Source: Verrucomicrobiaceae bacterium
GTDB taxonomy: Bacteria > Verrucomicrobiota > Verrucomicrobiia > Verrucomicrobiales > Verrucomicrobiaceae
Reading direction: 5' to 3'
Assembly (NCBI GenBank): GCA_016795365.1
Contig: JAEUHN010000007.1
Span: 1 to 64,000, forward strand
Length of the DNA stretch: 64,000 bases
Shown here: in pieces, positions 16,967 to 23,353 of the stretch
How the letters are laid out: each line of letters starts with the position of its first letter
Position numbering within the stretch: position 1 is the stretch's first letter
Program-made: the position numbers and the translations under genes
The notes under the pieces: generated by a model
The model's input: only the letters and a program-made list of their open reading frames with translations
Databases searched by the model: none
Told to the model about the DNA's origin: nothing

Positions 16967-18232
16967 TCATTCGTGAGGCAGCAGCCGCTCCCAAAGGGTA
17001 TCGTTCATGAGCACATTGGTCACGAAGTCACGACTGGTCGCCGTGGCCGATGCTTTCTCCTCAGCTTGCAGTGGCAGTTCGATGTGGAAGTTCAGCCCCG
17101 CTCCTTCGGAATTGCTGCCAGATATCTGGCCACCCAGGTGATAGACCAGGAAGTAAACACCCATCAGATTGAGCCCAAAGTCTGGCGGGCCGTCGGTGCG
17201 AATGAAGAAGGGATCAAAGACCGCTCGCAAGGTATCGGGCGGCAGCCCTGGACCATCGTCGCGGAAGACGATGTGGAGGCTGGGATCCTTGTCCGTGGAT
17301 TGATTGGCCGTCACCGCCAGCGAGACCGAGGAACCTGGGAACAGCATTCCGAGTTCACATCGCAGCAGCAGGTCGAAAATCTTCTCAAACTTCTGCGGAT
17401 CGGCGGAGAGGTTGGGCAGAGGGCTTGAGATGTCGAGCTTGAGTTCGATCCCGCGGTCGCTGAGTTCCTTGCGGTAGTTCTCAGCGATGGTGTCAAACAC
17501 CGCTCCGGTATTCACGATGCTGTCCGTTCTTGGCGGAATGCTTGACGCGCCGGGAGTCAGTTCGCCCAGGAGCGTCGAGATGCGTGCGGCCTGCTTCACG
17601 ACCAAGCCATGGAAGTCGCGCCAAAAGGCCGGATCGCGCAGCCTTTCCCAGTCGGTGCTGCCTTGTTCGAGCCGTCCAGGAGTCAGCTGAAGGAAACGCT
17701 GCACGGCCTGAAGGGGATTGGACAGCTGCCGGCTCAAGCCAGCGGCGAGGACACCAAGACTGATGACCCGATCTGTGATGAGCATGTTCTGCAGGGACGA
17801 CAGCTTCTCCCGCAGCAGTTCGTCGCGCTCCAGCTGCACCATGTAGAACTCCATCGCGCGGCGCAGCGTGGTCATCATGTCCTCGACCTGAAGCGGCTTG
17901 GAGATGTAGCGGAAGATGTTCCCCATGTTCACCGCATCCACGGTCACGCCGAAGTCCGCGTAGGCTGTGATCAGCATGCGAACCATGCGCGGGCGCAAGG
18001 TCCGGGCACGCTCCAGGAGCTTGACCCCTTTCTCGCCAGGCATTCGTTGGTCAGTGAGCAGAATAGCAATCTCATCGCCACGCTCCTCAATCAGCTTCAG
18101 TCCATCGGCGGCATTGCTCGCCGTCATGATTCGGAACTCGCGCCCAAAAGCCTTCTCAAAATATTTCAGCGCCATCTCTTCGTCATCAACGTAGAGGACG
18201 GCGTAGCGTTTGAGATCGTAGTGGTATTGCAT
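16967..18232 (-). CDS. Response regulator with degenerate histidine-kinase output domain (PhcR-like)
   Basis: Residues 1-125 are a receiver (AVLYVDDEEMALKYF; phospho-acceptor Asp61 in LLTDQRMPGEKG; Lys112 in YISKPLQ). Residues about 130-400 are kinase-like: a coiled linker, an H-box relic AAGLSRQLSNPLQAV in which the phospho-acceptor His is replaced by Arg168, and an ATPase domain with FRDDGPGLPPDTL and a weakened G2 box (FGLNLMGVY). This receiver plus kinase-like output architecture is the known feature of Ralstonia PhcR. It is the last gene of the three-gene unit, 18 bp after the hybrid kinase. The missing His implies no autophosphorylation. PhcQ-type identity is also possible. Confidence 0.82.
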   Translation of the reverse strand: MQYHYDLKRYAVLYVDDEEMALKYFEKAFGREFRIMTASNAADGLKLIEERGDEIAILLTDQRMPGEKGVKLLERARTLRPRMVRMLITAYADFGVTVDAVNMGNIFRYISKPLQVEDMMTTLRRAMEFYMVQLERDELLREKLSSLQNMLITDRVISLGVLAAGLSRQLSNPLQAVQRFLQLTPGRLEQGSTDWERLRDPAFWRDFHGLVVKQAARISTLLGELTPGASSIPPRTDSIVNTGAVFDTIAENYRKELSDRGIELKLDISSPLPNLSADPQKFEKIFDLLLRCELGMLFPGSSVSLAVTANQSTDKDPSLHIVFRDDGPGLPPDTLRAVFDPFFIRTDGPPDFGLNLMGVYFLVYHLGGQISGSNSEGAGLNFHIELPLQAEEKASATATSRDFVTNVLMNDTLWERLLPHE

Positions 18233-18250
18233 AGCTGTGATCGGCTAAGG

Positions 18251-20920
18251 TTATTCAATAGTATTTATTGCAGAGGAAAGGGGCAATTCCAAAACAAATT
18301 CAGTGAAGCGACCGGGCTCACTTCTCACGTCAATCCGACCTCCATGCTCTGTCATAATACGATGACAGACTGCTAGGCCGAGGCCCATGCCTGCACCCAC
18401 ATCCTTGGTGGTGAAGAAGGGATCGAAGATCTGACTCTTGATCGCGTCCGGCACGCCCGGACCATTGTCCCGGATGAGCACCGTGACTTCTCCGTCCCGA
18501 ACGTGAGCCTTGATCGAGATTGTCGGGATGTCCGGGCTGATAAAGGTCTTCGTCCTCAATGCGTCGATCGCATTTTGGATCAAGTTGGTTAGCACTTGCA
18601 CCATGTGGTTGCTGTCACCCCGGACACAAAGTCCCTCCGGAATCTGGACCGAGAGGTGGATACCATCTTTGAATTCATGAGCAAAGAACCGGCTCGTCAT
18701 CTGAATGATCTCGGCTAGGTCAAACGAGCCTGTGCGGTCATTGGTGTGGCGGGTGAAGCCACGGAGATCGGAGACGATACGCACCACGCGGTCGATCCCT
18801 TCTTCCACATCCTTCACCGTATCGACATAGTCGAGATGCTCCGGTCCGGTCAGCAGCCGTGCCTTGTCTCTCAAGAGGTAGAGTCCTTGACGCGCGTAAT
18901 TAAGCGGATTGTTGATCTCATGGATCAAGCCCGCGCTCATGCGGCCCAACGATGCCAGTTTTTCGTTCCGCACGAGGAGCACCTCGGTTTCCTTGACCTG
19001 CTCGAGAGCCGCCTCCAGCTGGACCTTTTGTCTCGCGAGTGCCTGCTGGTAAAGCGAGGACTCCACCAGATTGCGCAGGCGCACCATGACTTCGATCATC
19101 GAGAACGGCTTGTTCAGGAAGTCGCTGGCTCCGGCGGACAGGCAGGCAATGCGCTTGGCGGGGTCAGTCTCGGCTGTTAGCAGCACGATCGGCGTCGTGC
19201 GCGTGGTCGCGCTGGCGCGGAGTTCGCGGCACACCTGCAAGCCGTCCTTCTCGGGCATCATCATGTCCGACAAGATGATGTCTGGCGATTGCGCGAGAGC
19301 CACCTCCACTGCCTGCTTGCCATCGGCAGCTTCGAGGACTTCGAACTGCTCACCCAGCTGCACCTTGAGGAAATGCCGCATGTCGGGCTCGTCGTCAGCA
19401 ACGAGCAACACCGGCTTGCGGGCACCGCTGGACGAACCGTTTACCTTCTCCTCGTGGTAGTGAATCGTTGTGGAATGGAGCGCCGCCTCGCGATGCAGGC
19501 CCCCGAGCCAGTCGTCATCATCCGTGACGTCGGCGGGTTTTTCATCGACCGAGGCCTGCTCCGGTGCAGCCAGGTAGGGCAGCCGAACAGTCATCGTGGT
19601 GCCAACACCAACCGCACTCGTCGCCGACACTGAACCACCCATTGCCTCCGCGAATTCCTTTACCAAGGCCAGGCCGATGCCCACGCCTTGGAACTTTCGT
19701 TTCGAGGACGTGTCTGCCTGCCAGAAGCGGCCAAAGATGTGAGGCAGGTGGGCGGGATCAATGCCGATACCCGTGTCGCGGACAGCGATCACCAGCCATG
19801 AATCGACGCGCGACGTCTCAATCTCAATGATGCCACCCTCGGGCGTGAACTTGATCGCATTGAAAAGCAGGTTCAGGCAGATGCGCTCGAGCTTCTCTGG
19901 ATCGGTCTGAATCAGGTCAAGACCATCAGCCACCTTCGACCGAACGTTCAGGTGCTTGTCATGGGCAACCCCTTGAACCGCATTCACCATGCCGGAGAAG
20001 AACTCGGGCACGCTCAAGCGATGCGTTTTCACATTGACCTTGCCTGACTGCAAACGGGTGAGTGCAAGAAGATCGTTAATCAGCTTCAGCAACCGCATTG
20101 CATTGCCTTGCATGGTGGCCAGCAAATCGCGCTGATCCTCCACGCTGAGTTGGCCAGCCTTCTGCATCAAACGCTCGAGCGGAGCGATCAGGAGCGTCAG
20201 CGGCGTGCGCAGTTCGTGGCTGATGTTGGCAAAGAACCGGTTCTTCACTTCATCCAGGTCGCGCAGCTTCGCATAGTTGTCGGCAAGCTTGAGGTTGGCC
20301 GACTCGAGCTCGGACCGGTTCTTGTCGAGGTCATTGCGGAGCTGGAACTCACTGAAGCGAATCGTGTTGTAAAACCACGTGCCTGCCGTGGTGAATACGC
20401 CGGTCACGAAGAGGAAATAGACGTTGTTGAAGAAGACCGCGCGATTGATCGGCTGGTCGTTGGCGAAGCACGCGATGAAGTAGGAGGTGAGGGTGAGGAA
20501 GACGATGATGATGCTGTCCGCGAGTTGCCAGTGCATAAGCACGGCAGCACCGAGCATGACAAGATTGAGACCTGCGTAGTAGGGCGACTCGGAGCCATTC
20601 TTCGCGTAGATCATCCACGAGATCGAGATGATCAGGGGCATGGCCATGGCGATGCCAAGGGGACGATGAAACTTGCGACCCCACTCACGTCCTAGGAGCA
20701 CGCGAATGATGCCCAGCACCACTGCGGTGCCGAGTCGCATCCCAAAGAACTCTCGCACTCCGGCTTCGCCATAGACGATCCAGTCGAGCGAGCAACCCAC
20801 CAGCATGAACACCATGGCCAGCACCCCGCACATCCGGTAGTTGCGCACGCGGATGTCCTTCTCGTAGTCCTGGAAGTCACCTTCCAAGTTCTCACGAGTC
20901 GATGGAGACGATTCAACCAT
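18251..20920 (-). CDS. Six-TM hybrid histidine kinase with two kinase cores (PhcS-like)
   Basis: Protein of 889 residues. Six hydrophobic segments (about 29-49, 60-76, 88-104, 116-131, 135-152, 166-184) form an integral-membrane sensor without a large periplasmic domain, as expected for a lipid-like ligand. Core 1 has His235 in ANISHELRTPL, an N box near 350 and G1 RDTGIGI. A receiver follows (Asp552 in ILSDMMMPEKDG; Lys604). Then a coiled coil leads to a second complete core with His667 in GLIHEINNPLNYA, an N box NLIQNAIDAL and G2 GAGMGLGLAV. Its start overlaps the methyltransferase stop by 8 bp. It probably phosphorylates the receiver protein encoded downstream; the ligand is inferred only from the synteny. 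Confidence 0.88.
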   Translation of the reverse strand: MVESSPSTRENLEGDFQDYEKDIRVRNYRMCGVLAMVFMLVGCSLDWIVYGEAGVREFFGMRLGTAVVLGIIRVLLGREWGRKFHRPLGIAMAMPLIISISWMIYAKNGSESPYYAGLNLVMLGAAVLMHWQLADSIIIVFLTLTSYFIACFANDQPINRAVFFNNVYFLFVTGVFTTAGTWFYNTIRFSEFQLRNDLDKNRSELESANLKLADNYAKLRDLDEVKNRFFANISHELRTPLTLLIAPLERLMQKAGQLSVEDQRDLLATMQGNAMRLLKLINDLLALTRLQSGKVNVKTHRLSVPEFFSGMVNAVQGVAHDKHLNVRSKVADGLDLIQTDPEKLERICLNLLFNAIKFTPEGGIIEIETSRVDSWLVIAVRDTGIGIDPAHLPHIFGRFWQADTSSKRKFQGVGIGLALVKEFAEAMGGSVSATSAVGVGTTMTVRLPYLAAPEQASVDEKPADVTDDDDWLGGLHREAALHSTTIHYHEEKVNGSSSGARKPVLLVADDEPDMRHFLKVQLGEQFEVLEAADGKQAVEVALAQSPDIILSDMMMPEKDGLQVCRELRASATTRTTPIVLLTAETDPAKRIACLSAGASDFLNKPFSMIEVMVRLRNLVESSLYQQALARQKVQLEAALEQVKETEVLLVRNEKLASLGRMSAGLIHEINNPLNYARQGLYLLRDKARLLTGPEHLDYVDTVKDVEEGIDRVVRIVSDLRGFTRHTNDRTGSFDLAEIIQMTSRFFAHEFKDGIHLSVQIPEGLCVRGDSNHMVQVLTNLIQNAIDALRTKTFISPDIPTISIKAHVRDGEVTVLIRDNGPGVPDAIKSQIFDPFFTTKDVGAGMGLGLAVCHRIMTEHGGRIDVRSEPGRFTEFVLELPLSSAINTIE

Positions 20921-22400
20921 GGGCTGGTTTGCGGATTTCGAGGAAGATGTTTACGCCCGTCGGATCTGCTATCACTGAGATGGCTCCACGGGGCGCCCGT
21001 TCAGGTGCGAGACGAAGAAAGTGATCTTCATCGCGATACACGAGGTGCCAGTCTGCCAGGTATTCCATCCAGTTTCGCCAGGGATTACTGGGATGCACAT
21101 TGGTGGCGATGACCAGTCCGCCGGGCGCGACCAAGTCGTAGAAGATCTCGAGGAGTCGCTTGCATACTCGATCCGAGAGATAGTCGAACAGGCCTGCGCA
21201 ATAGACCACATCGTATTGCCGAGGCTGACTCCCAGGTGCTGGACGGACGTGCTCTTTCAGCACCTGCTGCACCGACTTTCGCTCCAGGCGCAGCTGCGCT
21301 TTGCGCCGATGACGCTCGCGGATCTCCTCCAGATTGCGTGAGGTGTTGGTGATGGTTTCATCATTGAAGTCCAGAAGATGGAAGTCGGCGAAATCACTGA
21401 TGTCATGGTGGCTAAGGAAGTTCTGAATCTCCTGGGCGGGACCGCAGCCCAGATTGAAGATGCGTGCCATGCGTTCTTCCTGCGAGCACCGGAGACATTC
21501 GTGATGCAGCTGCTCGGTGAGGTAGGTGATACGATTCCGGTGGGCGAGCACTGGAGGAATCTCCAGGTAAAGCCGGTTCAGTATCTTCGCGAAGATCGTG
21601 CTGCCTTCATAAGGATCGCGCAGCATCATGCTGACCATCTCGTAGTCTCCCGCGTAACCGAGTGGCTTGTGATAAGTGCGATACACAAACGGTGCGCAAA
21701 GCACCAGCGGGTGCAGTTGCCGTTTCACATAACTCCGATGAATGGGCTGAAGCTCGGTGGGAATGGAGTTGGCCGAGGCCTCGAACTTCACCATCAAGGG
21801 CATGACGGCGGGGACGATGGGCTCTTGCAGATCCACCATCGCCTCGCGCTCAGCATCGATGCGCTCGACGGGAGGCAAGGATCGCATGCTTAACTCCACC
21901 TGCTCCATCCAACGACGGAGATCGGAGAGGAGGATGTGAATGTCGGCCACCACGATCTTAAAATCTGGCAGCACTTGGAAGGTCTTCTCGGTCTCGCGAA
22001 GGAATTCCTGGAGGTCACTCTGAAGCCGGTCGCGCGAGTGCAGGGGCGAGAAGATGCCCACATCGATCCAGCCTTCTTCCGTGAGCGATGCCTCACAGAT
22101 CAGCATGATGCCGGTGTTCACCAGGTTGGCAATGATGGCACGACCACTGTAGATCATCCGCTCGTTCATCATGATGCGGAAGCCCGAAAGCACTTCCGAC
22201 AGCTGGACAATGCTGTAGGGATTATACACTTCGAAAACGGCCAGGTGCCGTGTCAGGCGGTGCAGCGTGCCTCTCAGTTCTACTCCATGACTGTTGCGAC
22301 AAATGATGAAGCTCAGCCGCTCGCCAGTCTCGGCATTGTGCAGCGGCGTGTTTTCTGAATTATCCATGAAGGAGGAGAAGTGTCGATTTCCGGCATTCAC
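20913..22400 (-). CDS. PhcB-like SAM methyltransferase (3-hydroxy fatty acid methyl ester synthase family)
   Basis: Protein of 495 residues. The N-terminal half (about 25-130) has an all-beta segment (CRNSHGVELRGTLHRLTRHL, then FEVYNPYSIVQLSEVLSGF and MIYSGRAIIANLVNTG) that I associate with the PhcB family. The C-terminal half is a class I methyltransferase (motif I IFNLGCGPAQEIQ, acidic DFHLLDFNDETI, YDVVYCAGLFDYLSDR). In Ralstonia, PhcB makes 3-hydroxy-palmitate or -myristate methyl ester, the ligand of PhcS/PhcR. The identical order methyltransferase, hybrid kinase, receiver/kinase-like protein supports the same role here. The chemistry is inferred. An alternative start Met is at 22367. 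Confidence 0.8.
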   Translation of the reverse strand: MNAGNRHFSSFMDNSENTPLHNAETGERLSFIICRNSHGVELRGTLHRLTRHLAVFEVYNPYSIVQLSEVLSGFRIMMNERMIYSGRAIIANLVNTGIMLICEASLTEEGWIDVGIFSPLHSRDRLQSDLQEFLRETEKTFQVLPDFKIVVADIHILLSDLRRWMEQVELSMRSLPPVERIDAEREAMVDLQEPIVPAVMPLMVKFEASANSIPTELQPIHRSYVKRQLHPLVLCAPFVYRTYHKPLGYAGDYEMVSMMLRDPYEGSTIFAKILNRLYLEIPPVLAHRNRITYLTEQLHHECLRCSQEERMARIFNLGCGPAQEIQNFLSHHDISDFADFHLLDFNDETITNTSRNLEEIRERHRRKAQLRLERKSVQQVLKEHVRPAPGSQPRQYDVVYCAGLFDYLSDRVCKRLLEIFYDLVAPGGLVIATNVHPSNPWRNWMEYLADWHLVYRDEDHFLRLAPERAPRGAISVIADPTGVNIFLEIRKPAHG

Positions 22401-22567: not shown

Positions 22568-23353
22568 ATGTTCAGCCGAAACGTCACTGTGAACGCCACC
22601 CGTTTAAAGCCAGAAATCAGATTCTCAAGTCGCGTTGAAAACTATGTGAAGTTCCGCCCCGGCTACCCTTCGAGTGTCATCGCATGGCTTCGCGAAGTGA
22701 TGGGACTGCCACCTGGAATAGTGATAGCTGATGTGGGCGCTGGGACTGGCATTTCGTCTCGTTTCTTTCTGGATGTCGGATGTGAAGTGTTCGCGATCGA
22801 ACCAAACACTGAGATGCGTGAGGCTGCGATCCATCAGCTTGGCCTCCATGGTTCATTCCATGCCATCGACGGAACGGCTGAGGCCACCGGCCTGGATGCG
22901 CGATTCGTGGACGTGGTCGTTTGTGCTCAGGCATTTCATTGGTTTCAGAGGCAGCCTGCACGACACGAGTTCACCCGGATTCTCAAGCCCGGCGGACATG
23001 TGGTGCTGATGTGGAATGAGCGTGAACTCGATTCTACTCCTTTCCTCCGAGCCTACGAAGCAATGCTCTTGCGCTATGCCACCGACTACTCGCAAGTGCG
23101 CCACGAGAATGTCACTCATTCGGACCTTGCCGAGTTTCTCGGGCAGGAGTTCCAGACCGCGAGCTTCGCGAACGAACAATGGTTCGACTTCGAAGGTCTG
23201 AGGGGAAGATTGCTTTCGTGTTCCTACGCACCGGAGTCTGGACAACAAGGCCATGACGAGATGATCGCAGAGTTGCAGCGCCTCTTCGATGAGTGCCACG
23301 AGGGTGGGCAGGTGTGCTTTCGATACCAGACCGTCGTGCACCTGGGATCCTGA
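22568..23353 (+). CDS. Class I SAM-dependent methyltransferase
   Basis: Soluble methyltransferase of 261 residues. It starts with the usual small-molecule methyltransferase pattern RFSSRVENYVKFRPGYP, then motif I (IADVGAGTGISSRFF), motif II (VFAIEPNTEMREAA) and the VVVCAQAFHWF and RILKPGGHVVLMWNE segments. It resembles the trans-aconitate/ubiquinone methyltransferase type, but the substrate cannot be named. It is divergent from the PhcB-like gene across 167 bp. A TTGACA (22480) and an extended TGCTAATGT (22506-22514) lie in that gap, but their spacing is too long for a standard sigma70 promoter. Functional linkage to the signalling operon is possible but unsupported. Confidence 0.85.
   Translation: MFSRNVTVNATRLKPEIRFSSRVENYVKFRPGYPSSVIAWLREVMGLPPGIVIADVGAGTGISSRFFLDVGCEVFAIEPNTEMREAAIHQLGLHGSFHAIDGTAEATGLDARFVDVVVCAQAFHWFQRQPARHEFTRILKPGGHVVLMWNERELDSTPFLRAYEAMLLRYATDYSQVRHENVTHSDLAEFLGQEFQTASFANEQWFDFEGLRGRLLSCSYAPESGQQGHDEMIAELQRLFDECHEGGQVCFRYQTVVHLGS

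Follow-up and report, generated by a model that had tools for sequence, protein, structure and literature searches.

A Phc-related gene cassette in a Verrucomicrobiaceae genome and its homologues across the Verrucomicrobiota

Three consecutive genes in a 64,000 nt stretch of a Verrucomicrobiaceae genome (contig JAEUHN010000007.1, positions 1–64,000; here called the window) form a bona fide Phc-related cassette, variant in the architecture of its kinase, in its third gene and in its output. The related system of Ralstonia and Cupriavidus employs a fatty-acid methyl ester to gauge the number of neighbouring cells. A lipid-ester signalling function is likely from the sequence, and there is a reasonably good chance that the trio is a Phc-type autoinducer cassette that employs a lipid-ester signal and acts on an output other than PhcA. 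In a 2023 survey that covered Pseudomonadota alone, the phc cluster was confined to Betaproteobacteria (PMC10653808); a literature search returned no paper describing a phc cluster in Verrucomicrobiota. The trio is a concrete candidate for cell-cell signalling in a phylum that is abundant in soil and water.

Genes of the trio locus

The region from nt 22400 to 16967 is filled on the minus strand by three ORFs, in the order methyltransferase (MT), sensor kinase and receiver protein (gene 3):

20913–22400, minus strand: PhcB-like SAM-dependent methyltransferase (MT), ORF of 495 aa
18251–20920, minus strand: PhcS-like hybrid sensor kinase, ORF of 889 aa
16967–18232, minus strand: PhcR/PhcQ-like response regulator (gene 3), ORF of 421 aa
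20913–20920, minus strand: 8-base overlap of the MT stop and kinase start, from the ORF coordinates

The 8-base overlap is consistent with a single transcript for MT and kinase, and an 18-base gap separates the kinase from gene 3. Near-abutting gene order is also seen at the trio loci of relatives, and promoter and terminator scans of the trio locus gave nothing above chance. The initial annotation described three overlapping or abutting genes for a methyltransferase, a six-TM hybrid kinase and a receiver joined to a kinase-like domain, and this is borne out by ORFs occupying exactly the span it gave, by Pfam domains and by hydropathy. Divergent from the trio lies an unrelated second methyltransferase gene (Methyltransf_11; window nt 22568–23353, plus strand).

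Since homology with its relatives starts there, translation of the MT probably begins at the ATG at nt 22367 (residue 12). The protein has an N-terminal PhcB domain (residues ~30–112), a helical middle section and a C-terminal class I methyltransferase domain (311–495), within which Pfam places Methyltransf_12 (317–429). The N-terminal domain has no Pfam match, and no PhcB model in Pfam or NCBIfam matches the MT. Structural comparisons gave weak PDB matches, to the methyltransferase part only, and an AlphaFold prediction from the single sequence had a mean pLDDT of 35.6. A PilZ-like fold for the N-terminal domain, suspected by eye, obtained no support.

The MT shares 39–41% identity with Cupriavidus PhcB over ~455 aa, N-terminal domain included, and when C. 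necator PhcB was searched against the whole genome it was the best match (348 bits; runner-up 177 bits). Its earlier assignment to the PhcB family therefore stands, best hits outside that family not having been found. A comparison of 11 Burkholderiales PhcBs gives 187 invariant positions, and the MT retains 124 of them. In the alignment its residue R43 corresponds to R22 of Cupriavidus PhcB, and signal synthesis in R. solanacearum is altered when its PhcB carries R22C (PMC6989110). The same genome encodes an MT paralogue on contig 22 (L117:10149–11618), 32% identical, which has no kinase or receiver neighbours and shares a clade with locus L116.

In the kinase, Pfam recognizes, from N- to C-terminus, HisKA and HATPase (H235), REC (D552) and a second HisKA and HATPase (H667). 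The N-terminal hydrophobic segments (residues 31–44, 61–75, 92–102, 117–152, with room for two, and 164–178; hydropathy averaged over 30 homologues) are enough for six predicted TM helices within residues 1 to ~185. PhcS aligns with this protein twice, first across the six-TM region and then across the second kinase module (residues 627–881), which is the PhcS-type module; there H667 is equivalent to H230 of PhcS (PMC11960443). Judged by these alignments, the window kinase is a PhcS with an extra HisKA-HATPase-REC cassette inserted between the six-TM sensor and the C-terminal kinase. At locus L105 its parts are divided between two genes, and the plain PhcS layout is found at L112 and in a kinase encoded on contig 10 of the same genome. 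The latter was the best match to C. necator PhcS in the whole genome (207 bits), the window kinase being second, with two separate alignments of 140 and 120 bits. It belongs to a second, complete PhcS-PhcR-like pair (L129:8441–11150; contig 10, ~225.4–228.2 kb). Like the trio, this pair joins a six-TM kinase to a REC-HATPase protein; unlike the trio, it is without a methyltransferase and lies directly after a gene for a GspD-type secretin (L129:11157–13619).

Gene 3 encodes a REC domain (residues 12–123) followed by HATPase (301–389) and is the best match in the whole genome for both PhcR and PhcQ of C. necator, with REC and HATPase colinear with PhcR over residues 8–368. The receiver Asp is kept (D61), and R168 occupies the expected position of the phospho-acceptor His. 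At the 17 loci of the family where gene 3 could be aligned, the Asp never varies and the His survives at a single, divergent locus, L194; in the clade of the window protein the N-box Asn has gone as well. Gene 3 has no DNA-binding domain. The trio operon has no fourth gene that could be a separate phcQ, and for R154 of PhcQ no counterpart residue was matched with certainty. From its domains and residues, gene 3 is best described as a PhcR/PhcQ hybrid, built like PhcR and carrying a receiver of the PhcQ type, and it looks like a phosphorylation-switched pseudokinase. Of the original description, the receiver with a kinase-like output domain is upheld and the identification as PhcR needs refinement, the protein being intermediate between PhcR and PhcQ and having lost the phospho-acceptor His.

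Conservation and phylogeny

Of the 388 genomes sampled from the phylum, 22 have an MT homologue, as do 47 of 68 genomes of the same family (38 of these at an identity of at least 61%); in the same order, many members with small genomes have none. At 20 MT loci examined in the phylum scan, a PhcS-like kinase gene lies directly downstream in 18, and in 17 of these a receiver gene is next. The two loci without a kinase group apart as an orphan clade, to which the paralogue on contig 22 belongs. Further loci from the same family keep the trio order in 20 of 20 cases, up to contig ends. The trio, for which a search in other Verrucomicrobiota had been proposed, is thus a conserved unit at phylum and family loci, and the cassette occurs widely in the phylum rather than as an isolated import. 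In three family members a gene for a Trp-halogenase-like FAD enzyme, absent from the window, lies near the trio and is transcribed away from it (L099:2495–3880, L100:11752–13089, L101:42–1412).

Cupriavidus served as the yardstick for Phc, named genomes being obtained via PhaC; conservation of five phc genes has been reported for this genus (PMC2864759). With the MT profile, 7 Cupriavidus genomes each gave exactly one full-length match and Trinickia gave none. All five Cupriavidus loci that were read have the order phcB-S-R-Q. A plasmid of Paraburkholderia graminis carries genes for MT, kinase, receiver and receiver, that is, the B-S-R-Q order with PhcR reduced to a receiver. PhcB was detected in 6 of 250 Burkholderiales genomes, including five new ones with B-S-R-Q in order. 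The proposed match of the gene order to phcB-phcS-phcR is confirmed by all 11 Burkholderiales loci examined, each of which has B-S-R-Q, so that the trio arrangement was missing from none of them.

A tree of the MT, rooted with more distant methyltransferases and sampling two phyla only, with long branches present, places Burkholderiales PhcB inside the radiation of the Verrucomicrobiota, as sister to homologues from loci with a linked polyketide synthase (PKS; L107–L111; support 100/97). A constraint uniting the non-Burkholderiales homologues in one clade was rejected (p-AU 0.0017), the clade for this test having been chosen with the tree already in view. A tree of PhcS-type kinases, drawn from the same two phyla, independently groups Burkholderiales PhcS with the same PKS-linked loci, in agreement with that of the MT. 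Distances for MT and sensor are correlated across 29 loci (r = 0.89), a value confounded by shared ancestry.

These data bear on whether a generic methyltransferase merely happens to lie beside an unrelated two-component system, as could be imagined in a genome where hybrid kinases and receivers are common (50 receiver hits). Set against this are the phylum-wide conservation of the trio, the best hits of PhcR, PhcQ and PhcB within it and the concordance of the MT and kinase trees; conservation across loci rules out a chance neighbourhood, and such an explanation has next to no probability.

PKS-linked loci and the putative signal

In six loci from as many genomes of the phylum (L106–L111) a gene for a type I PKS of 2082–2603 aa (L119–L124) lies directly 5' of the MT gene. 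Like the trio, these loci have a core of MT and hybrid kinase, with a receiver gene next in five of six; unlike the trio, they have the PKS upstream and, in several cases, extra receiver genes. Among the sampled loci, five of these six are the closest to Burkholderiales PhcB. Two of three domain-typed PKSs contain KS, AT, DH, ER, KR and ACP, and in the third (L119, upstream of L106) the domains are AMP-binding, ACP, KS, AT, MT, KR and ACP; none of the three has a thioesterase detectable by Pfam. As a PKS without a releasing domain adjoins a PhcB-like enzyme, the arrangement suggests that the MT of these loci acts on, or releases, an acyl-ACP product. The placement of a PKS immediately before the MT at these six loci suggests that the ligand may be an ester derived from acyl-ACP and sometimes built by a PKS. 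A plasmid of Enterobacter ludwigii (L125:5670–8807) encodes a KS-ACP PKS protein whose C-terminal methyltransferase domain is a distant relative of the PhcB core.

Since the trio of the window has no PKS beside it, the substrate of its MT presumably comes from fatty-acid synthesis, as for PhcB. The PhcB-like enzyme would methylate the carboxyl group of a 3-hydroxyacyl or similar acyl-ACP-derived chain, and the resulting ester, possibly a 3-hydroxy fatty-acid methyl ester, would be diffusible or would partition into membranes. The six-TM kinase would detect it and then autophosphorylate. Phosphate might pass from H235 to D552 and/or be set by the PhcS-type module (H667), and then reach D61 of gene 3. 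Because gene 3 lacks a DNA-binding domain and has lost the kinase His, its phosphorylation would be expected to alter binding by its pseudokinase domain, as proposed for PhcQ/PhcR. Such a circuit could respond to cell density and so act in quorum sensing. Points that weigh against this reading are the better match of C. necator PhcS to the contig 10 kinase, the divergence of gene 3 and the existence of an MT paralogue that has neither kinase nor receiver beside it.

The ligand of the trio is uncertain, since known Phc ligands vary even between related organisms: C. metallidurans CH34 yielded no 3-OH PAME despite its phcBSRQ genes (PMC2864759). Together with the PKS found beside the nearest relatives of Burkholderiales PhcB, this gives some room, in our view a minor share of the probability, to a Phc homologue that uses another acyl signal, such as a PKS-built ester or an O-methylated lipid, by which the cell would sense the state of its own membrane or metabolites and would not count neighbours. 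The window trio, however, has no adjoining PKS, and the invariant positions that its MT has in common with Cupriavidus PhcB also count against this alternative. Less probable still is that the MT acts on a target inside the cell and has only a feedback effect on the kinase, which would then sense an outside or host-made lipid with no autoinducer involved. Weak CheR-like matches fit such a role, as do more distant methyltransferases of the same core that lie beside diguanylate cyclase genes on Roseateles and Rhizobium plasmids (L127:4758–5804, L128:4734–5777), but these methyltransferases have no N-terminal PhcB domain and branch at a great distance in the tree, and the trio follows PhcBSR(Q) in both order and sequence.

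As the gene set is common in this part of the phylum, and some relatives have their own lipid-building enzyme, signalling of the fatty-acid methyl-ester type is probably older and wider than thought. A further-reaching reading, which we offer tentatively and rate at somewhat under even, is that Phc was not a betaproteobacterial invention: the known systems would derive from a larger family with a deep Verrucomicrobiota radiation, in which some members couple the MT to a dedicated type I PKS and may represent an undescribed class of PKS-built methyl-ester autoinducers. With a conserved unit, a nested PhcB and a PKS-coupled form, it becomes testable where the system arose and how varied its ligands are.

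Output and comparison with known systems

In C. metallidurans, phcBSRQ and a fur-phcA arrangement have been reported (PMC2864759), and the layout in C. necator matches this, with the phc operon ~22 kb from fur and a LysR gene adjoining fur. This LysR gene, identified as phcA by its position, gave the PhcA query. No PhcA orthologue was found among the 11 LysR-type HTH hits of the genome (97.2% complete), the best match being partial (23% identity, E 2.7e-4). The absence of a PhcA-like regulator had been noted in the window, with the prediction of a different output, and now extends to the whole genome; as the genome is without PhcA, the target of gene 3 is not PhcA.

In the CqsA-CqsS and Lqs (LqsA-LqsR-LqsS) systems, as in the trio, a multi-TM sensor kinase adjoins a synthase for a lipid-type signal. 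Both differ from the trio in having a PLP-dependent synthase (for LqsA, PMC10653808) and no methyltransferase, and they did not emerge as homologues here. With phcBSRQ-phcA of Ralstonia and Cupriavidus the trio has in common the B-S-R order, a full-length PhcB with its N-terminal domain, a six-TM sensor, a PhcS-type kinase and a third gene with REC and a kinase-like domain. It departs from these systems in the extra HK-REC cassette of its kinase, in having neither a separate phcQ nor PhcA, in a gene 3 with the architecture of PhcR, a PhcQ-like receiver and no remaining phospho-acceptor His, and in the presence of a second, orphan S-R pair in the genome.
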